Position numbers and translations under genes: made by a program
The notes under the pieces: model-generated
The model's database searches: none
What the model was told of the DNA's origin: nothing
The model's input: the letters and a program-made list of their open reading frames with translations, nothing else
Shown: piece after piece, positions 13,901-34,233 of the stretch
Position numbering within the stretch: position 1 is the stretch's first letter
Layout of the letters: every line of letters begins with the position of its first letter
DNA from: Daphnia pulex
Lineage: Eukaryota; Arthropoda; Branchiopoda; Diplostraca; Daphniidae
Length of the DNA stretch: 64,000 bases
Direction of reading: 5' to 3'
NCBI RefSeq assembly: GCF_021134715.1
Contig: NC_060028.1
Span: 8,221,482-8,285,481 of the forward strand

Positions 13901-14903
13901 ATATACCTGTTTCTCCAGAACCATCAAGTACAATTGCACTTCAGCTTCTGCTTCAATCTTCTTCTCTTCCACAAACTTTTTGATCATTCTTTCGGCCAAC
14001 GGCAACGTTATCGTAAGGCATACGGTATCGTCGTTGACGTAGGCCTACGAAAGCGGGAAAAAAAATCAACATCAACATTCCAAGGCAAGTTTTTCTTAAA
14101 GGTGAACTTTACTTGCATAAGGATACTCATGACAGCCCAAAAATAGTATGGGTTTTTGGGCTTGACTTTGAAGAGGGCCATGGCTGTCAGCTGCTGCTTT
14201 CGGTAGTCACCAATGCGAACATAGCCCATGAAGAGATGGGACAGAAATTCCTCGTTCAAAGGGTCTTTCCTGACTGCCGCTTCATAAATCTGGCACGTCA
14301 GTTCAGCTGTGTAAAAGAAGATCACATTATTTAAAAAGAAGTTATCCAAGTGTAAGAACTTTGCTTTTACGTCTGTGAGTTTCCCGATAGCAAATGGCCA
14401 TGGCTTGAAGTGTGGCATCTTCGCAAGGCTCCTCCAATTGCACCTCCTGCAAGATGGTCTGGGCCTCCTCTGATTTCCCTAGCCTCACCATGGCCAGGGC
14501 CTTGAGAACCTAAACAAACAAAATATCTCTCACATTTTGACACTTTCCTCACTTGAGAGCCAATGTTTACAACAAGCAGCGTACCCTGGCACATTGTAGG
14601 TTTGGCTGCTTCTTCAAGACCTTTTCCGCCTCCTGCAGAGCCTTCTTGTTGTTTCCATTATCCAGCCAATCTGTTATGATTATGGAAATCAAGACAGGTG
14701 AAGAGAACAAATTAACTCGGAGCAAATCGTGTGTGGTGGGGTGAACCCCCGAAACATAATGATATTTATTTTTTGGTCACGGGTGAGGTTTATATTTGGG
14801 GGATGAATTTTCCGTACAATCATTTACCGTAAATTGGCCGCAAACGTCTCTCGTTGACTGAATTATCAACCGGCTTCATTTTTGTAGCCATCTTCGAGAC
14901 CAT
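10962..14903 (-). CDS. NAA25: N-alpha-acetyltransferase 25, NatB auxiliary subunit
   Basis: Orthologue of human NAA25 and Drosophila psidin, the TPR-rich auxiliary subunit that anchors NAA20 to ribosomes for co-translational N-terminal acetylation of Met-Asp/Glu/Asn/Gln proteins. Seventeen exons: 14828-14903, 14585-14670, 14371-14510, 14113-14306, 13917-14044, 13459-13831, 13217-13392, 12987-13150, 12745-12911, 12509-12678, 12259-12439, 12162-12225, 11978-12095, 11757-11912, 11451-11690, 11264-11383, 10962-11204. They sum to 2796 nt, 931 residues (human 972). Family landmarks: ERRLRPIYDWLDNGNNKKAL at the N terminus, PKNPYYFWAVMSILMQ in the TPR part, SAYKFGSFGKIPEF, DNRDCGVFVSWDPP, and a lysine-rich run (KKKKKKGEAK) near the C terminus, as in the human protein. 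Two in-frame ATGs open it (14903 and 14891); the second gives MATKM, closer to human. The donor after exon 10 (GTACTC) is weak but the frame requires it. Confidence 0.95.
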
Positions 14904-17224
14904 GTCTTTTGGGAAAAAATAAATTAAAGAAACTCTGTGGGGCCTTGTGCAGATGGCGCGGACTAGTGTTCCGCGCAACGTTTCAGGAAACGCGCCAAAT
15001 TTGATCGGTAATATCCTAAATTGCATTGCATCTATATAGGAAATAGTTGTAGAGTCGGGCCAAAGAAGAAGATTCTCTTTTCATGCAATACCGTTGGAGA
15101 AATCGATAAAGTGTAGCCATTCGTCCTTGTATAAAGAAAAACACATGGTCCTTTTTATTTCTCAATGGCTGTGACGACAAGAGCAGTTTCCAACATCAAA
15201 GTTTGATTAGTCTGATTATTTATTTTTCTTTTTTGGGGAGAAAATGAATCAAAGTCTTTGACGTCAGACGTTTCTCTGCCACCTGAAATGTGTTACGTCA
15301 ACAAAGCGCCGTGATGAAAATGGAGCTAGCTCTTATTTCTTCGTGAATATATTAAGTATCAAGGGAAAAGTTGAACAATAGAAGTAGCAATAACAAAGTG
15401 AACTAGTTTCTTATTAACTTTCAAGTGCTGCTGTAGACTCTCTATACACACACACATCTCCATATGTCTATGTGTATCTCATTTCGAATTGCCTAAACAA
15501 AAGAGAAGCCGATATCGATCGGTCATTCGGCTTCCTTTAGTATATATATGTAGATATTAGATATGACGACGGTATAGAAATAGCGATGTTGTACACAGAC
15601 GTGGAGAAGGCCTTTTATAGCGAAACAAAAAAGAGCTAGAGAATTGATTTATTTTCTACTGCTACTGACGTCGTCGTTCTATTTGGTCGCCGCCCCTCTA
15701 TCATTGGCCGGCGTCGTGAAAGATGTGGCGACATTTTGATGCGATTGGCGCAGGCGCTTTCAATATGACAGCGACGTCACACGCGATGAAAAACTAAATA
15801 AATAAATAAATAATAATAACATTCTATTGATATTTGGATATCGTATTATTTGTGTGTGTTTGGGGGAATCTGTGACGCGTGACGTGGCAATCTCTCTCGT
15901 GAATGAGGACGAGCGGGATCCGGAAGGAGGTAGGGATCAGACTATATAGGAGCTATATAGGAGCCTCTGCACTAGGAGCTCAAGGGCCATCAAGAGGATA
16001 GAGACTGTGTGTGTATAGTAGTGTGTGTATGGATTTTCTTCTCAGTTCCATGTGCATGGCGCACATCGATCGATTGGGGCCAAAGAGACTCTGGTCCCGA
16101 CTCGTCTCATTCGTCGACCGACTATATAGCACGCCGTCGCCCACAGTCTATATCGCCTGTGTGTACAAGGGTCTGTCCGGGTTGGCTGTCAGCTGCAGGA
16201 TTGACGATTGGGCCGCTGTATCATTTCGATTGTCACCGTCGTCACGAAAACAACGGCACGGATCGATTTCCAAACGGATAAGTCCAACACAATGCCACCA
16301 CACACTAGTACATGTATCCCGCACAAGAACTGCACCACCATTTTCGTTGGTTGGTGGGCAGCAGCGATCATATATGAATATTGCACAACTGGCTGGACCC
16401 ACCCATATTTCTATGGCTTGTTGTTTTGATTCGCAGGGGCTTTCCTTATGGTCTCCGAGGGAGGGTTTCATTTGATCTTTTTTACGTTGACAATTTGACA
16501 TGAACGGACAGCGCGGGACAAATATTTGTCCTAATGGTATAAATGAAAGAATCAGCGTAGACAAGATGTAAAACAAAACGCTAATAATCAAAAGGGACAT
16601 ACTGTACAGGTGAAAGATGAGGCAGATATGACGAGAGTTGATGATGTCATAATACAAATTCAGACGTGATTATAATTCTTTTTTTTTTGTTATTATTATT
16701 ATATTTTGTTTAATACCACACACACAGAGCAGGAGAATGGATCAAGTGGCGAAAAATCAAAAAACAACAATAAAAATGAAAAAATAATTCAAAAGAGGAG
16801 AACAATAATTAATTAGATAATAATAACTGGGGGGGAATCCACAATATGTGGCAGCAGTAGCAGAGAGTTATATAGGAAGTCAATTGATGTGGGATTTGAG
16901 TTTTCGAAAAAAGAAATAAACGACCTAAGTTTTTAAATAGGGACGACTTTTTTATTTGTTTTACAAAGTGAATGATTAACCGTTTAGAAGAGTTATAGTA
17001 ATGCGCTAAGTAAAATCGTCTACTGATGATGGAAAAACAATCAAAAAGAAAATTTTTGGTTTAGCCCTAATAAAAAAATGTTTGGTGTTTATCATCAACT
17101 TGTAGCTTTCTTATTTTTTGGTTTTTGACTCGGCAAATCAAAAAATGTTTTGGTTTGAAACGTAACAAACCCCCAGACCTTCCAGTTGGCGGGGGAAATG
17201 CATAGATACATCGTCATCATATTT

Positions 17225-17301: not shown

Positions 17302-17911
17302 CAAACATTATAATACTTACAGAGAAAGGGAAGTTAAAGAGATAATAAAGAAAAAACAATGGAAAATCGAGGCTACTGCATATGACGAGGAAAATGTCCA
17401 TTAAACATCAGTTTTTTTCTTTTTTAATAGCAGCTTCAGGGACATTCAACTATAATTCATTTCGTTACTTTTTTATTAATTTTTTTTTGTTGTCTTCTTT
17501 TGAATTTTTTCTCTTAAGTGTGTGTGTGTGTAAAAGTAAGAAAAGGGTTCGTGTGTTCAAACCGAATAAAAAGCAAAAACTGGCTTCTCTACAAATTATT
17601 TCGTCAGCCAACCGATAAAAATTCACACACAAATTTGAGGAATTCAAAATGAGAATTATATATCGAAATGAAAAACGAAACATATATTTTTTGGGGTTTT
17701 TTTTAAGTTGGGAGAGGCCCTTTTTTGGTTGTTTTTTTTCTGGCTACAAACAGATTGAATTTTTTGAAGGAAACAAAGAAGACATTTTTAGGTTCTTTAC
17801 TTGGTTGCCTCGGCGTTGTTTGATTCAGGCTGGCGGACACACAAAAGCCTTTTGTGAAGCTTTTGATTGGGCAGTTGGTTGGTTAATTTTTTCTTTTTTA
17901 ATAAAAACGAA

Positions 17912-17992
17912 TTACAATCCAAAGTATCCTCCAATGGTAGAGGCCAAGATGACTCCCAATATGGCCAAACAAATCATGATCATAATCTTCTT
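17912..17992 (-). CDS. Syx1A: Syntaxin 1A alternative last exon b (membrane anchor)
   Basis: An 81-bp exon coding 26 residues and a stop, preceded by a good acceptor (TTCTTTGCAG type, at 17993-17994). It starts KKIMIMICLAILGVIL and ends GGYFGL, a typical syntaxin tail anchor closely resembling vertebrate STX1A and Drosophila Syx1A. It is in the same phase as exon 9a at 19026-19106, so both can be spliced to exon 8 (ending at 19493). It lies 1 kb beyond the exon 9a stop and would be used when 9a is skipped. Confidence 0.85.
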   Translation of the reverse strand, partial: KKIMIMICLAILGVILASTIGGYFGL

Positions 17993-19025
17993 CTGCAAAT
18001 AGCCGCAACACAGGTAACAACCAAAACAACAAACGACACACCCCAAAAGTGTTGTTGTTGTGCCACAGAGAGGAAGGCAATCAAGGAGAGACAGAAAAGA
18101 GAGACAGAGAGAGAAGATTGGTTAGCTCTTTTTTTCCTTTCCTTCATCAACTAATTCAAATGCTGGAAGCCAAAAAGCTACACAAAAGTTCTTTTGTTGT
18201 TCAATTCCAGTCACAACAAAAAGGAAAGAAAAAAAAATTGTCCAACAGAAAAGGCAGCTGCAATCCCACGAGAGACTCAAAATAGGAGCGTCGTTTTATT
18301 CAAAAATTGAAAGAAAAATCAAATTAATAGAAAAGTCCATTCCACTACTGTGTTTGGTTGTCGTCAATTGGTTGTTGTTTTTATACTTGAATGTACAGCA
18401 AATTATGTACACGGGGCAACACAAGAAGGAAAAAATTAAACAACAGCCAAATGTGTAAAGAGTTTGAAAAAAAGGAAAAAAAGATGATTTTATCATTCCA
18501 CCCACCCCATTCTCCTATTTTACACACACACACATACGACACATGCGCACTAATCAACTCGTTCCAGAGGGTGGCACCAATCAAATAATCTTCGAGGGGA
18601 AAAAATAAACCAAAAATGACAAAAAAAAACTAAACAATAAAATAGCACACACACAAAGGTTAATTGCAATTCAATTATAGCGAAGGAATCAAAGAAACAA
18701 AAGAAAAAAATTTAGAAGGGAAAATTTCTATTTCTCTTGGTAAGTCTTGTTCTCCCGGTATTTTGTTTTAGACGCGTGTGTTATTTTCAAATGCTTTTAA
18801 GTAAATTTTCTAAAGAAAAAGAGAGGCAGACAGCGGAGGCGGTTCTCATCGATTCCTGTAGGCCGTTGCGCATTCACACACAATCATCAAAATGTTGTCT
18901 CTCCTCTTTTCGTAAATGTTTAAATACAATTGATTTTGTTATCTCTTTGTATGTTTTTTTTCAATGGAAAACGTAACGTGTTCTTGTGTGTGTTGCGATT
19001 ATTTTATGTACAACAAATTCGACTA

Positions 19026-22000
19026 CTAAGGAACTGTAAATCCGATGATGAGGGCCAAGACGATGACCAGCGTGATGCTGACGCAGATGATAATAAATAT
19101 CTTTTTCTACACGGGAAATAAAAAATAAACGAATAAACAAACCAAACAAATAATTTGACCAAATAATAATAAATGAATAAAAAATAATAAGCATTCAGCC
19201 AAATTTTGCAGCATAGCCCATCTACTGGCTGCTATAAAAAAATTTTTAAGATAAAATTCTATTTCAACTTGTCCGTGACTCGTATATATAAAAATAAATG
19301 TGAAAAAATGTAGAATAAAAAGTTTTTTTCATAGACATGCCAGCTATAGAAACGTCAACAATAAAAAAGAGCAAAGTAAAATAAAAAATGAATCCTCCCC
19401 CTTTTTTTATATCAACTACGATCGACGTCTACTATTCTATCGAGTGGAAATTCCAAAAAAGAAGAAAAGAGGATCAAAAACTGAAAACTTACCCGTCGAG
19501 CTTTGCTTTGATACTTCAGTGCCTTTTTCGTGTCTTGAGTGGCGGTCTGAACGTAGTCGACGGCGTGTTCCACATTGTACTCGATCCGATCGATCATTTC
19601 ACCCTATTCAGCAGCAGCCAAAGACACATCAAAGATAATCGTTACGTTTTATATCAAATCGGCGTGTGTTGTTTAAATGCGTACCTGGTTCTCGACCAGC
19701 ATGGCCATGTCCATAAACATGTCATGCAGTTCGCGGATCGAGTTCTCCAATTTCATAATGTCGGCGTGACGAGCCTCAATGTCCGCCAGCGTCTGCCTGG
19801 CCTGCTGCGTCTCCATAATGATCTGCAAAAACGAACAGAACAATGTAAGTTGTGGCCTAATTGAAAGAGCAAACAGCCAGCAAATGTCTTACGCCTTGAG
19901 TGAAAACGGCCGGATTGCCTTGTTCCAACATTTCCTCAAGCTCTTCGTTGGTAGTCGTGCGCCCGGCTGATGTTTGCACATGAAAGAAACAAAGTTGAAA
20001 GTCAATTTGAATAATTTCCAAATGGGCTGGCAAGAAAGAAATAAAGTCGTACTGATTTCGAGTTGGCGCTGGATGCGACCCTTGCATCGCTCACGGTAGT
20101 CGGTCTGCGTGCGGTTGTATTCGGTCATGACCTCGACGAATTTACGGGAAAGTGTCGAGTGCTGAGTTTTACGTATCCGCAAATCAGCCGACGATTTATT
20201 CGTTTGCTCCTCATGTTCGATATTTTGTTCGATGACTGCAAATCGAATCAGTGCAAATGTCATTATCGTTAATCGAACAACAAAAGGTCAATCCAACCGT
20301 TACCTTTCAGCTTCGATCGAACTTTATTGGCCGTTTTCTTGATGTCGGCCATCAGATCCTCGAGCTCCTGCTTCACCTCTGCAAATAAAAAGGGAAATCA
20401 AATTTAGATCCGCTGACGGTAATGGCACAAATGGTATAACTATATATTTACTTTCGTCCGTTTGCGGGGCCGACAGGATGGCGCTGTGTTTCTTCTTGAC
20501 CTCTTCTACATTGGCCTGTATCTTGTCTATATTCTCCCGTATCTCGTTCACCTGTCATCCAATCAAAACAGCGAATATAAATGACCTGATTTGAGTTAAA
20601 TCCAAAAGTTACAAAAAAATGGCCGCCCCTTCTTGTAGCCTGGCTCAATGTAATCCTCATCCATCCATCCCCTGCTGGCCTCTTTTTATATATTCCCTAA
20701 TCCTGTGGTGGTAGAGACTATCGATTATCGATTACATCATCATCATCGTTCTTTTCCCCCAGATATTGTGGCCATTCGGCCGAGAAAACTCCGTCCATGG
20801 CCAGCCAAAAAGAAAAGAAAGTTGCCTTTTTTTAAAAGATGGAAGAAGATGGCAACTCCTCCTATATACTTGGTTTATTTCATTTTTGCGTCTATACTTT
20901 TCATCCCTTTGGAGAGCGAGAGGGTTACTCTTCCATTACCACCACCACGGCTGCTAGTTTTCTCTTTTCCCTTTGCCATCGATCGATGTATGTGACTTTG
21001 AGTCCCGAACGCACACACCCTGTCCGCCCGGGCGGCGCACGCATTACTCCACACACATTGAGAATCGGGAGGGAGGGGGTTTGGGTTTGAGACTATTGTA
21101 TATGCACGGTACTAGTAATGATCGCCTCCTAATAATAAAAAAAAAAACGTGGGAGGGTCCAACGTTTCCCTGCCGACGAAAAAAAGTTTGAATGAACAAT
21201 CGGCGGAGAGTTAAATGGCTCGAAAATAAATCAGTACAAAGGTATTGATTAGGCCTTTAAACTTCTTTCCCCCCTGGTGACGGGAGAGTGGCGCATTGTG
21301 GAAGGAGGGGGGCATTATTGAAATTCGGCCCGATTCCAAATTGTCCGCGGGAAGGTTACGAGTTGGCAGGGACGGTTCGTGCGTGTGGGCGTCACAATTC
21401 CGAGCAAACAAAAAGAAAAAAAAAACCACTCGAGAAGAAAAGGAGGATAGTCGCCTCCTTTTGGAAATAAAAAGGAGCTTTAAAATAAAAAAGAAGATTT
21501 GATACAGTGACGTTGCATAAGCTCGACGAGGTGGCAAGGATTTGGTCGGGGTGGGGATGCTGACGCATAAAAAGATTGGGTAAAGGCAGTTGCGGAACTG
21601 ATCAATGAGGGTACGTAGTTTAATGTGATGGAGCGCCCACTCGAGTGCAAAGACTTTAACTCGGTGCTCCTGAAATGTGCAAAATTGGCATGATAAAATG
21701 AGAGCACACACATATGAAATCGAATCCATCTCTCACGCAAAAAAGATCGCTGACCTCCTCTGACATTTTTCTTTCATTTTCCACACAAATAGAAAAGCGA
21801 TTCCAATCGTCCATCACATGTCCAGCAGCTTTTCACGCCCGGCCGCATCTTCCGTTCGATTACCGCACGCCTAGGCTACTCTACCATGTCTTCATGCCAG
21901 TCAACCAACAAACAAAGCCCTTCCTTCTCAATGGTGGTTGTGTCCCTGTGTGTGTGCCGTTCATCATTACAACTTAGCAAACTTTTTCCCCCCCTCGTTC

Positions 22001-22791
22001 ACGAGATTCTTTAAGTGATGGACTATTTCTTAGCTCGAGAGGGGATTGCGCAGTCGTAGATGAAAGGAAGCCTCACTCTGATGGGGTGGATATAGTTTTA
22101 CTTTGAAACAAACAACGAGAGAAAGAAAGAAACAAGATTTTAATGCTCAAGACTAGAAGCCTAGTGCTTCTCTCTCTCTTCTACAGCGTTCTGCTGATGC
22201 AATTCCCCCTGCAATTCATCAGGGGCTCCTGATGCTACCGCGCCTCTTGTCATTACGCTACTATTGGCCACGCTATCAAAAGCAGACTACCAACATGAAT
22301 GAGAGCCAATCGCAAACACAATTATGGCTAATGAATTCCACCCTCTGCTATCTCTCTCTCTCTCATCGGAAAAGAACACCATCAGCCAAATTGCTCCACG
22401 TTCCAACCTGAACACTCTTGTGCTATCTATTCAGGTGCATGTCCCTCATCTCTTTCGAGTCTTGTCTATGCAAATGCTCGGACCATGATTACGCTATGGC
22501 CAACTGCTGAAAGATGTAATGGGATTAAATAAACAAGTCAACGGAAGGGTAGTTACCTCTGCAAAGAAGGCCTCCATGTATCCATCCTGGGCCTCAACAG
22601 TAACGGCCACATCATCTGGCCCTGTGTCGTCATCCTCGCTTTGTGCCTGAATCGGCAGGAATGCAAAAAGAGGAGTAAATGAGTGTTGCACTACGAGGCA
22701 TTAATTTCAAGCGACAAGAGCTGTGCACAACAAAGAGAACATGGTTACGTATACTCACAGCTTTGAGGGCTGCTAATCTGTCCTTGGTCAT
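19026..22791 (-). CDS. Syx1A: Syntaxin 1A, plasma-membrane Qa-SNARE
   Basis: Neuronal t-SNARE that pairs with SNAP-25 and synaptobrevin to drive synaptic-vesicle fusion and binds Unc18 through its Habc domain. Exons: 22759-22791, 22557-22646, 20452-20551, 20304-20378, 20053-20235, 19893-19966, 19685-19822, 19493-19603, then last exon 9a at 19026-19106. Sum 885 nt, 294 residues. N-terminal [11 protein letters not shown] is the Unc18-binding peptide. The Habc region follows, and landmarks [18 protein letters not shown] and [16 protein letters not shown] are nearly identical to human STX1A. The SNARE motif includes [18 protein letters not shown] (zero-layer Gln in the next stretch) and [18 protein letters not shown], ending KYQSKARR. 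Exon 9a gives a 26-residue anchor beginning [17 protein letters not shown] second anchor exon (9b) lies at 17912-17992. Intron 2 (20552-22556) is the longest and holds nothing I can recognise. Confidence 0.95.
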
Positions 22792-24740
22792 TTTGAGGGT
22801 TGGCCTACAATCCCACCGACAGCTTCAAAGAGAGAATTGCACCCAAAAAAGCACCAAATAGTTAGTGGTAGACGGCGTCGGCTACACACACGCACTGGGC
22901 TCTCACACTCTCAGACACACATACACCGAAAATCAATACTCCCTTCGGATGGCAAAGACAGACAAACTGGGCACACACACACACACAATTTCAACGAGGA
23001 AAAAGGACACGAGAACAGCTCTTTCTTCCTTCTGCAAACCAAGACACGGACACAAAATTAGCACGACAGATAATTATTGCTGAATGAATTGTGTCTTTTT
23101 CGATTCCCGATAAAAAAAAATTTCGGGGGTCTTGTGCCGGGCGTCACAGGAGAAACCGACACGGCCGTCGACAGGGCAGTGGGCGACTCGGATAGTCAGC
23201 TTTCCCTTCTCTTCTGTCAAAACCACCAATATGGCCGCACTGTCGCAACGTTGCCAACTCGACAGAAATCCACCTACAAATCCCCCAACAAAACCGAATT
23301 GATTTTATCATTCATCCTTCTCTACATCGAATTCAATCCATTAAAAAAAGAAAACTTCTCAAATATTCATTCATAATGCAGAGGGGTTTTGCCCAAGTAC
23401 AGATATATAGATTTATTATGAAAGAAAAACGTATGTGACATGGAAGAGCGATTCCATTTCTAATCGTACCGAACGAACTCCCCCAGGTTCCTATGAGCAA
23501 TGATACGACATGACACGTACAAATATATATCAATGATGTACCACACAACAATTTGAATGGAATTCAAGTAACGGGTTTGGCTTGATTTGTTGGTTCTGGA
23601 ACGTGGCAGCGGAAACAAAATGGTGACAAAGAAACGTTGGTGGAAACGTGATGCAACAAAAAAATCCAAGTCATATTTTTCCTGTCTGCATTTTGCATAC
23701 GTAATCGTTACAAGACACACAGTAAAGGTCACACCAAAATTTAATTCTATCGCCGACCGCCGTTTTCCTCTTGATCGCTTCCAACCAACAACCATATCCA
23801 TACATTTCCGCCTGCCAACATCCGACGTCTATTTCATGTATCATTTCTCCACCCAGCCGAATTCTTTGATCGAACGAAGTTGTTTTTTGTGAATGCCCTT
23901 CTTGTGTTTTGTTATCTCTTCATGGTTTGTAATAATAAGCAGCACGTCATCGAATATGACTCACGACCAGCGATAATCTAAACTCCCTAGACTCTGCAAC
24001 TCTGAGTGTGTGCACAAGTGCTTATCGACAAAATGATGCATTCGGCACTCCCCCCAGCCAAAAATTCATGAAAAGGACATTTTTCAGTCAAAGATTTGCA
24101 AGAAAATTGCGTGGGCTGCTTGCAAATAATAAATACCATGCGGATCGTGACTGGTCTGTCGCAGCAGGCGGTCCTTTCTACAAGGTCTACACGGGATCTT
24201 GTATAGTTACCCTGTGCACACACGAAGATTTCAGCTCCTACAGAAAATGATACAGAGCATGTTCATAAAATATTGGACTAGTTTGCAACGTTCAGACCGT
24301 GCACGATGATGTGTGTGTGACTGTGTGGGGACGGGGACTGCCAACTGATAAAAAGCCGTTTAAAGAATCTGACTGCATTCAGCTTAGCAACTCATCTTTT
24401 TGAAAAAGGTCGTACATTAAAAGCGGATGCTTTCATCTGGATTAAAATAATAATTTCACGGTGGTCTGATGGAGTCAGGGCTAGACACTTTGACTAAATG
24501 ATGGAAAATTAGATACCTCGTTTTCTGGAGGTTGGAAAACCCCGCCTACTTCTTGCAGAGCCATCTGTGTTTTAGGAAAAAAGAACGAGTCTAAATAATC
24601 CAATTTATAGTCTGCACTTTGTTTTCAACAGGAAAATAAGGCTCCACGTGGTATTTATTTAAAAAAGAATGAATACTTGATAAGTTGATATTTATTTAAA
24701 AAAAAAGAATGATTAAATAAATACAAGAACTGGCAACAAC
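22792..24740. other. Divergent spacer between syntaxin 1A and the FBXO47-like gene
   Basis: No gene is supported here. The two genes are transcribed away from each other, so this 2-kb stretch should hold both promoters and the syntaxin 5' untranslated exon(s). A splice acceptor or TATA box could not be placed with confidence. Confidence 0.5.
22972..22987. repeat. (CA)n microsatellite
   Basis: Eight CA units just upstream of the syntaxin 1A start, in its probable 5' untranslated or promoter region. Confidence 0.85.
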
Positions 24741-27878: not shown

Positions 27879-30800
27879 ATGCGTCTCTTCTGTTACTGTC
27901 TACTGCTGCTCGGTAAGTAACTGAAAAAGGAAGCTTCCCTCAATCAATTTGCTAATATTTAAATCTGATTAGGTTTGGCAACGAACCAAGTTTTGACAGA
28001 CTCGACAAGTAAACCTCCATTTCGCGAAGGTATCGAGTATCGATACGAATGGGAGGCGTCGATGGAGAGCGACTCGGGGGTAAACAATCAGGTAGCCACA
28101 TCGACTTGGCTCAGGGGACAACTTTACGTCATCACCAAAGTTGAAGACACCAAATGGCGATCACTTTTAAAAGTTAGTTTTTTTTTCTAAATCATTTAAA
28201 AAGCCATTTAACTTGATGTTTTTGTACAGATTAAGAATGTTTCTCTGGCGATGAAGCATGGGGAAAAATCTTCTCAGACTGGCAATTCATTTATCGAATT
28301 GACGGAACTTAACGAACAGTTGAGCAAACCGTTTCATCTTCTCTACTCGGGATCCAAAGTTTGTTTCCAAAAAATCAAAAAGTGGAAAGATCATTTGAAT
28401 CATATTGATTCTCTTTTGCAACAAAAGGTCGAAGGAGCTGCTTTCCCGGATGACAAAGAGCCACTTTGGTCGACCAACTTTAAGCGTTCCATTGCATCGA
28501 TACTGCAAGTCGATCTATCCGGCATCAACAATTACATTTATAGCGACAAAGAGGTAGTACTTTCTTTCCTTCCTATTATAGGACCAAGTTTTTATCTTTT
28601 TTCCTTTGGAAATGTTTTCAGTTATCGCTGTACGGAAAATGCGAAGTCAACTACTACTCCTCGCCTATGGGTGAGAACCAGCACAGTGTGACAAAGCATC
28701 GGGACTTGGATTCGTGCCCAGAGTTGCCACTGGGTCGATGGAGGACTTTTATCGATATGCCCTCGTGTCCCGGAGGAGGACAGCAGGTATAATGAATTAA
28801 TTATCTCTCTCTTTTCCCCCCTCATTCTACTCATCTGCTGCTGATGGAAATATATAGAATGGCTTTTTTTCTGTGTGTTTTTGTTCTATTACACGGATAG
28901 ACTGTCGCAGGGTTGACTAGCACGGCTACGTACGTCGTAGCAATCAATCGCGGTTACCCAGAGCTCTTGAAAATCGAATCTTCCGGTGTCGTATGGCTCG
29001 ATCCCTTTGGCGTCGACAAGTCATCCATGAAGAGCAAAACAAAGTACGTAATTACATGGCATCCATCATTTATAGTCTAATCCCCAACAACTTTTTTGCC
29101 CTCTTTTTAATCGATATACAAAAACTTGGCTTGATCCTTTTTTTTTTGACAGTGTTACGCTGCATCTGGAAAAAACGCGACGTTCGACCGAGTCAATCAC
29201 TCCGGCCAAGTTGGCATTCAAAGACCATTTAAAGTTTGTCTTTCAACGCGAGGAAAAGACATTGGACCTGAAAGCGGCACAGAATCTCATGCTGCACCCA
29301 GAGTCATTGATCTACGGCCAAGAAAATCTTCGTCGCAGGAGCCAACTCGATCTCATTAATGCCGTCGAGTTTCTATCGGCCGAATCGTACACTTCGGAAC
29401 AACGGATTAGCATGGACGTCCTACCTCTTTCAGCCATCTCATATCAACTGGGATCCTTGGATTATGCTAATGCCAAGGCCCTTTACAAGGAATTAGCCAT
29501 TGCTCCCAAAAATGAAAAACTCCACTCGGCCAGGTATACTCAATTGAATTTCATTATATTCCAACAAAGGAAATAATCGAAACTTTGCATTTTGTTTAAA
29601 ACAGAAACATTTTTTTGGATCTGATTCTGCATTCTGGAAGCAACGTTGGTGTCATTCTCATCAGAGATTTGATCCTCGAAGGATCGCTGGATGTATGGAG
29701 TGCTGCTCGCCTCGTTGCTTACGCTGGAATTTACGTCAAAGAACCGTCAGAGAAGCTACTGCTGGAATTCCAGCAAATCACCGAAGCCAAAATTTCGGGC
29801 GAAGGCGATCAATTGAACGTTTTTAAAAATGCGGCTATTCTGGCCGTTGCCAGTTTGGTCGGAAGAACTTGCTCCGCACCCAGAGTCTGTCGAACCGTCA
29901 AAATCGACGAATGGCAAAAGAAATACTACGGCATTATTGCATGTAAGTGGTAATAAGGATTAAAGCAATTTCCCCCCCCATACTCATTTCCATTCATAAA
30001 TATTCAGCAAGTTCAAATTCGTTTGCCGATCGAGCTCTTTACGTCCACGCCCTGCAAAATGTCGGTTATGGCCACACACTGGATTCCATGTTGGAAATGG
30101 CAATTAAGAGAGCTCCCCTCGATGACGAGAGTGCCAATGACCTGAGGGTCTATATTATCAAAGGTTTAGCTCCGTACAAGACACAAGCCAAAGTAAAAAA
30201 ATGCACATAATTTCAAAATGATGAAATTGTAATCTACCAAACATTTTGGGTGGGGTTTCTAGGTTTGGAATATTTTAGTTCGACTACTCAGAGATGTCAA
30301 GGATAGTTTCCGAGTGAGGATCGCTTCTGCTCAAGTGATCCTCGATGAACACGTTACTACAGAAATGTTACAACTGATGCAGCAGTTGCTGTCTAGAGAA
30401 AATAACAGCCAAGTGCGTCATTACGTTATTTCGGCTATCAAAACCATCGCCAACAATCACAACCCCTGCAACACTCATGTGTAAGTGACACCGACGTAAC
30501 TTAATACTATTAACGAGCATTAGTATAACGATATCAATCAACGAATAGGAGGGCAAGGGCTAAGCAAATTCTTAATGCGTTTGCTGACGAAAAAATGGCC
30601 GCTTCGAGTAGTTCGGCCGAATACGCTTTCGATTTCCTCGACAGCCGTTCCTCGTTTGGCAGCCAACTCAATTTGAAGACTACCAATTCAGAATTTGACG
30701 ATCTTACCGGTTTTGTGGCCGGTAAAGTTCTCTACTTTGTCAAAGGAGTGACTGTTCAGCCCTTTTCGGTAAACATGAAACTTAAAAGTACAAAAGGGGA

Positions 30801-33800: not shown

Positions 33801-34233
33801 CAATTTACCGTCAGGGCAAACGACCTCGAAATAGATGTATCAAATAATTCATACACTCTACCAGAGGGAAGAGACAATTTCTACGTTTTAAAGTAAGTTG
33901 AAAATAAAAGAGAAAAACAGATTTCGACAGTCATTAACCTTTAAAAATCATAGGGTACGATATCAAGCGCCTATTTACATCATCTCTTCACCTGGAGCTG
34001 GACTTTTAGTGCACTACAGCGGGAGTCACGTTGCCGTGTTTCCCACTTGGTTTCACAAAAATCAACACTGTGGTTTGTGCGGCAACTTCGACGGGGAGAC
34101 TGACAGGGAGTGGATCAGCCCACAGGGATGTCCAGTTAACAACGCTACTGTACTGATTGCCTCCTACACTTTGGGACAAACATGCTACCCAAATCAGGAA
34201 AAACTTACTTGTCCAGATAGTAACTTACAATAA
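27879..34233 (+). CDS. Vitellogenin/clotting-protein-like large lipid transfer protein
   Basis: Secreted lipoprotein of the large lipid transfer family (vitellogenin, apolipophorin, crustacean clotting protein). Twenty-one exons: 27879-27912, 27973-28172, 28230-28553, 28622-28786, 28901-29043, 29153-29533, 29605-29942, 30008-30192, 30263-30480, 30549-31063, 31127-31334, 31409-31575, 31641-31786, 31849-31988, 32059-32188, 32254-32409, 32497-32709, 32813-33452, 33520-33674, 33735-33892, 33954-34233. Sum 4896 nt, 1631 residues. It opens with a signal peptide (MRLFCYCLLLLGLATN). The N-terminal lipid-binding module (LPD_N) starts at FREGIEYRYEWEA; the helical part spans exons 6-10. A VWD domain covers about residues 1436-1620, with the hallmark CGLCGNFDG near 1578 and paired cysteines. 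A basic RRRS near residue 353 could be a processing site. No poly-serine phosvitin stretch and no SOD-like domain are present, and it is shorter than typical yolk vitellogenin. A vitellogenin-like or clotting-protein role is more likely than bulk yolk; this is inference. Confidence 0.9.

Follow-up and report, generated by a model that had tools for sequence, protein, structure and literature searches.

Two candidate last exons encoding different membrane anchors in a syntaxin 1A gene of Daphnia pulex

The syntaxin 1A gene (Syx1A) was investigated in a 64,000-nucleotide stretch of the Daphnia pulex genome (RefSeq assembly GCF_021134715.1, contig NC_060028.1, positions 8,221,482 to 8,285,481), hereafter the window, whose own numbering is used unless a contig is named. 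The gene is complete on the minus strand, and the eight coding exons common to both products (22791 to 19493, with AG/GT at all internal boundaries) are followed by two candidate last exons, a proximal one (P, coding part 19026..19106) and a distal one (D, coding part 17912..17992). We consider it probable that this one syntaxin-1 gene gives rise to two proteins that differ in the transmembrane anchor only, through the choice of terminal exon, and that neurons make D through an ELAV-type bypass of the proximal end. Splicing in P and using its polyadenylation (poly(A)) site would yield a protein with anchor P, possibly the default or general-secretion form; skipping P and its poly(A) site would join the last shared exon to D and yield an STX1A-type anchor. 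Such a change of anchor would affect how the protein is sorted laterally in the plasma membrane and how it behaves in fusion, not SNARE pairing.

The last shared exon (exon 8, 19493..19603) ends in KYQSKARR, with the donor CGG/gtaagt in phase 0. P, read from 19106 to 19026, and D, read from 17992 to 17912, each continue in phase 0 after KYQSKARR with a YAG acceptor upstream, and each encodes 26 residues and a stop, those of D being KKIMIMICLAILGVILASTIGGYFGL. The acceptor of P reads tttatttcccgtgtag before 19106, with 13/17 pyrimidines in its tract, and the acceptor of D reads cggctatttgcag before 17992. Joining exon 8 to P or to D gives a protein of 294 amino acids in each case. One common donor, two acceptors of the same phase and a stop in either exon constitute the anatomy of alternative last exons. 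The original prediction had described two exons of 81 bp after KYQSKARR; the positions, phase, acceptors and 26 residues plus stop all stood, but 81 is the coding length including the stop and not the exon length, because each, as a terminal exon, would continue into a 3′ untranslated region (3′UTR) of its own.

Both strands of the window were scanned with a rule that combined a pyrimidine tract and YAG, a phase-0 frame of 20–40 codons followed by a stop, a hydrophobic 18-mer and at least two basic residues among the first four. The full rule gave three matches, namely P (Kyte–Doolittle value, KD, 3.39), D (2.81) and a weaker one at 23031 (2.50); 11 matches (8 on the plus and 3 on the minus strand) were obtained without the basic-start part. 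After dinucleotide shuffling of 19492-17000 (2,493 bases), any full-rule match occurred in 1/500 sequences, and P as a chance frame was rejected on this result. We infer that both exons are used.

Putative poly(A) signals, recognised by sequence, were located behind both exons on the minus strand. The sole AATAAA between P and D (18295..18300) would serve P, and the nearest AATAAA after D (17472..17477) would serve D. Variant signals are present between P and D (CATAAA at 19008, GATAAA at 18494 and TATAAA at 18385), and other possible signals after D are ATTAAA at 17902 and 17428 and AATAAA at 16956. The strong donor words GTAAG and GTGAG are absent from 19025-17993, where weaker donors are possible, and P as an internal exon was rejected for want of a strong donor word behind it. 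As a terminal exon, P would have a 3′UTR of approximately 0.7 kb, and what is chosen would be one of two transcript ends. In strict usage, 'mutually exclusive' applies to internal exons. The description of P and D as mutually exclusive last exons in the original prediction was therefore revised: given the missing strong donor word after P and the AATAAA downstream of either exon, P and D appear to be alternative last exons whose choice is coupled to polyadenylation, not mutually exclusive cassettes.

The remaining shared exons on the minus strand are exon 1 (22759..22791, from the ATG, placed by its GT donor and reading frame) and, with AG/GT boundaries, exons 2 (22557..22646), 3 (20452..20551), 4 (20304..20378), 5 (20053..20235), 6 (19893..19966) and 7 (19685..19822, C-terminal end ...MAMLVENQ). 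Intron 2 (22556-20552, minus strand) has 2,005 bases and is by far the longest between shared exons. Both products matched PF00804 (Syntaxin, N-terminal Habc; E 1.5e-42), PF05739 (SNARE; E 2.5e-20 and 6.1e-20) and, more weakly than PF00804, PF14523 (Syntaxin_2). In both, the SNARE motif leads directly into the C-terminal transmembrane anchor, with which the protein ends. Among solved syntaxins, both products come closest to syntaxin 1: of the 17 sequences matched at E <= 1e-8, 16 are named syntaxin 1A and one S-syntaxin, and the alignment runs through the anchor in 2m8r/3hd7/3ipd only. A listing of 38 solved sequences has none named syntaxin 2, 3 or 4, so that this gives no ranking against those.

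Judged by its sequence, D is a classical neuronal anchor of the STX1A type. The D product aligned with rat STX1A (PDB 2m8r/3hd7) at 103 bits, the alignment covering 25/26 anchor residues, and 19/25 residues of the rat anchor are identical in D (z 9.2, 0/2000 shuffles as high), in agreement with the earlier claim that one exon resembles the usual STX1A/Syx1A anchor. The P product reached 81.7 bits with the same rat chain, and P shares 11 aligned identities with the STX1A anchor (z 2.65, 21/2000 shuffles as high). P is also the more beta-branched anchor, as had been predicted (I, V and T make up 14/26 residues in P vs 8/26 in D), with one glycine against four in D and a mean hydropathy of anchor residues 3-25 of 3.11 vs 2.21. 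The KARRKK before the anchor is identical, and both anchors hold a single cysteine, at anchor position 8, so that P and D both keep the first of the two palmitoylated cysteines of STX1A. The anchors diverge from residue 4, with 39/81 bases and 11/26 residues identical in register, and most of the difference falls in the outer half of the membrane span, which is small and glycine-rich in D and bulky and beta-branched in P.

Further comparisons used provisional anchor sequences of STX1B, STX2, STX3A, STX4, fly Syx1A and the worm. Against these provisional sequences, P scored best with STX4 (17 identities including ICVSIT, z 6.9) and then STX2 (15 identities, z 6.4), with z 4.2 for STX1B, 4.2 for STX3A and 3.0 for fly Syx1A. 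D scored z 8.5 with fly Syx1A (14 aligned identities), the provisional Drosophila anchor being closely like D, and z 8.4 with STX1B, followed by STX4 (z 3.5), STX3A (z 2.3) and STX2 (z 0.7). An STX4/STX2-like class for P is a lead drawn from these provisional anchors. Several comparisons are neutral towards a division into two classes or tell against it. The provisional STX3A anchor shares 14 identities with D and 13 with P, yet its z is lower for D (2.3 vs 4.2); D still reaches z 3.5 with provisional STX4; the provisional worm anchor resembles neither P nor D (z -0.5 and 0.1); and P appears not wholly unlike the neuronal class, as its z of 2.65 to STX1A and 4.2 to provisional STX1B indicate.

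Other syntaxins were searched for in the same genome (13 contigs, 133,188,837 bases). The SNARE-domain search returned nine matches, one of them Syx1A, and the protein search returned 11, three of them Syx1A. A gene on contig C2, named Syx4-like by judgement, carries its anchor in the same exon as the end of the SNARE motif; with 12 identities to D (z 2.2) and 8 to P (z 1.1), this anchor is closer to D, a result that speaks against simply equating P with the Syx4 class. A second, diverged syntaxin-1-like gene, whose exon limits match by eye, was located on the minus strand of C12, the contig of Syx1A (7,775,368-7,776,934). Two of its SNARE-region exons are 63% and 45% identical to Syx1A, and its single last exon has 81 coding bases for NRIIIVSIVVIILIIIIGSVVGSLKK and a stop, an anchor about as far from P (z 2.0) as from D (z 1.8). 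Pfam assigns the SNARE part of this gene to PF05739 (E 7.9e-15) and no family to its first 84 residues when joined, and its exon 8 seems to have a poor acceptor. The idea that P was recently copied from another syntaxin of this genome was rejected, the three anchors compared with it (C12:7775k, C2:3713k and C10:14666k) giving z 2.0, 1.1 and 0.9. The eight other SNARE loci were scanned within 3 kb for a second anchor using a loose hydrophobic-tail rule, at least 9/15 pyrimidines and judgement by eye; no clear second last exon was seen, which does not prove absence, and the scan rows beyond the evident last exons were long or had no two-residue basic start.

A common origin of the P and D exons is plausible. 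The alignment of P with D has z 4.1 (2/2000 shuffles), and the base identity of 30/69 between them was reached in 203/5000 codon shuffles of P. Together with the 11/26 residues in register, these values favour an account in which both exons are in use, with the pair created by lineage-specific exon duplication and the likeness of P to STX2 and STX4 being a convergence of hydrophobic segments. The provisional worm anchor unlike both exons, the Syx4-like anchor nearer D than P and the provisional status of the vertebrate sequences point in the same direction. However, the 39/81 bases in common are too few for a young duplication, and P is nearer to provisional STX4 and STX2 than to D or STX1A; we regard duplication with convergence as quite possible, though somewhat doubtful. 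An older origin is also conceivable, in which the bilaterian ancestor had one syntaxin-1 gene with two anchors, one of the neuronal type seen in STX1 and STX3B and one of the general-secretion type seen in STX2, STX3A and STX4, the choice depending on a bypass of the proximal 3′ end that is specific to neurons. Both would have been kept in Daphnia, and vertebrates would have split them among paralogues, STX3 with a trace of the pair. We hold this older origin to be unlikely, and its probability was lowered slightly because the Syx4-like anchor on C2 is nearer D than P.

The principle of an anchor switch is already known, and what differs here is the order of the exons, insofar as this can be judged, the divergence of the anchors and the confinement of the switch to the anchor. 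The original prediction drew a parallel with unc-64 of C. elegans, which the literature bears out (PMC4946901). Exons 8a and 8b of unc-64 give UNC-64A, found mainly in neurons but also in some other tissue, and the non-neuronal UNC-64B under control of UNC-75/CELF, and CELF promotes the neuronal exon (PMC4946901). As in unc-64, a single syntaxin-1 gene has alternative last exons and differing anchors with the rest of the protein unchanged, here as read from the sequence; the two unc-64 anchors are identical in the first 11/25 residues and differ in the last 14/25, whereas those of Syx1A differ from residue 4. Vertebrate STX2 (epimorphin) likewise has two anchor forms produced by splicing but is a separate paralogue, and mouse Stx2, with its two anchors, has a CELF2 site of the motif UGUGUGUG (PMC4946901). 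STX3 resembles the present gene in that one gene yields a neuronal STX1A-type form and a non-neuronal form with another anchor. STX3B, the retinal, STX1A-like form, differs from STX3A in the anchor and half of the SNARE motif (PMC11476516); its anchor is two residues off STX1A, and STX3A is without anchor cysteines (PMC11476516; PMC9183232). The STX3 switch thus also swaps the second SNARE half (exons 9-10), whereas here the anchor alone changes and both anchors have one cysteine. No switch of a SNARE half like that of STX3 was encountered, since shared exon 8 reads into either anchor; no search dedicated to an alternative exon 8 was made. STX3A given the STX1A anchor rescued synchronous release, and both anchor cysteines of STX1A are palmitoylated (PMC9183232).

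The choice between P and D may be governed by RNA-binding proteins, and we infer the tissue and the regulator from the sequence around the exons. In fly neurons, proteins of the ELAV family promote the more distal of two last exons, and U-rich sites lie beyond the proximal poly(A) site that is bypassed (PMC8055025). The present arrangement is similar to that of nrg, ewg and other ELAV-controlled genes, in which a proximal competes with a distal last exon and U-rich RNA lies past the proximal signal; ELAV control of Syx1A would follow by analogy, and the string 'Syx' is missing from the main text of PMC8055025. A U-rich stretch similar to ELAV sites (18215..18237, minus strand, limits set by eye) lies downstream of the proximal AATAAA. 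The 80 nucleotides behind this signal contain 39 T, a number reached at 2/160 AATAAA sites of the window, itself included; T per 100 nucleotides behind AATAAA is 43 at 18300, 29 at 17477 and 37 at 16956. The 386-base intron before P contains four copies of the ELAV-like word TTTATTT (16/2546 equal segments have as many), and the looser TTT[TA]TTT is less distinctive there (104/2546). ELAV/Hu-like exons were found at C4:3288379-3291929, with five TIGR01661 matches (best E 1.6e-44), none of which is alone above the TIGR01661 cut-off because each is a single exon. The U-rich stretch past the proximal AATAAA is a weak hint of ELAV-type skipping, which would give D in neurons.

A competing regulator is CELF of the UNC-75 type, which instead of ELAV would decide between P and D through GU-rich RNA, as in unc-64 and Stx2. 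This is consistent with the published control of those two genes by CELF (PMC4946901) and with the GU-rich words between P and D. A zone at 18523..18882 (minus strand) holds nine TGTGTG words, a weak signal that 22/2520 equal overlapping segments share, and six TGTGTGTG (30/2520 segments have as many) and seven TTGTTG/TGTTGT (88/2520) also lie between the exons. However, GT repeats are common in the window, where TGTGTG occurs 63 and 57 times on the two strands, and the exon order seems reversed relative to unc-64; control by CELF in place of ELAV is in our view doubtful. RBFOX (TGCATG) and paired NOVA words were found neither in the intron before P nor between P and D.

Several points weigh against terminal-exon choice under ELAV-type control. 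The motif evidence is weak and post hoc, the windows having been picked after looking, because eight word patterns were counted in three stretches and the segments overlap. Further factors besides ELAV and CELF bind U-rich or GU-rich RNA. The neuronal exon 8a of unc-64 appears to be proximal, whereas the STX1A-like exon here is distal, an opposite order, and the roles of the two UNC-64 forms are disputed (PMC4946901). A small search of open papers, which does not extend to unpublished annotation, gave among the matches listed no report of an anchor switch in arthropods, insect Syx1A included; PMC11976915 mentions Syx1A as a marker only, and PMC2831892 has no bearing on the question. The acceptor tract of D is average (10/17 pyrimidines), the seven shared-exon acceptors ranging from 9 to 14. 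The GC content of P is unremarkable, since 186/1,264 overlapping noncoding windows nearby are equally high.

This likeness of P to its flanks would suit a further explanation, in which P is a cryptic terminal exon or a relic, left over from an old duplication of the anchor exon and hardly or never used, and all functional Syx1A ends in D. Fly Syx1A, which is not known to have a second anchor, would agree with it, as would psyllid Syx1A, described with one transmembrane region (PMC12470858). However, frame, acceptor, stop, phase, length and strongly hydrophobic span of P are all intact, its third-position GC equals that of the shared exons (0.65 in both), and a relic with no more than 11/26 residues in common with D would be expected to have lost some of these features. 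A relic P is very unlikely in our estimation.

If terminal-exon choice operates as proposed, the locus bears on the debate on whether the syntaxin anchor is a mere membrane holder or steers sorting and fusion (PMC9183232; PMC4946901). A gene that switches the anchor alone, mostly in its outer half, would be a clean natural experiment, as the basic stretch, the cysteine and the SNARE motif remain constant. If P-type exons occur throughout the arthropods, switching of the anchor would count among the old features of the secretion machinery and would not be peculiar to worms or vertebrates; if the ancestral pair were also real, the secretory identity of a cell would set the anchor of its main fusion protein.

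Searches of prokaryote and viral contigs with the Syx1A protein gave 262 and 6 pattern matches, respectively, none of which was confirmed as a relative, in line with expectation for a gene of animals. The gene that starts approximately 220 bases downstream of the second syntaxin on C12 resembles NDUFB5. Among seven window pieces tested against Pfam, six gave no match. Frames at 14342-14509 on the minus strand resemble a TPR protein, perhaps NAA25, with no Pfam match, and the frame at 29076-29576 likewise had none. A frame at 33892-34233 on the plus strand matches the von Willebrand type D family of Pfam (PF00094, E 1.1e-8) and is perhaps part of a large multi-exon gene that begins at approximately 28 kb and looks like one for a large lipid-transfer protein.

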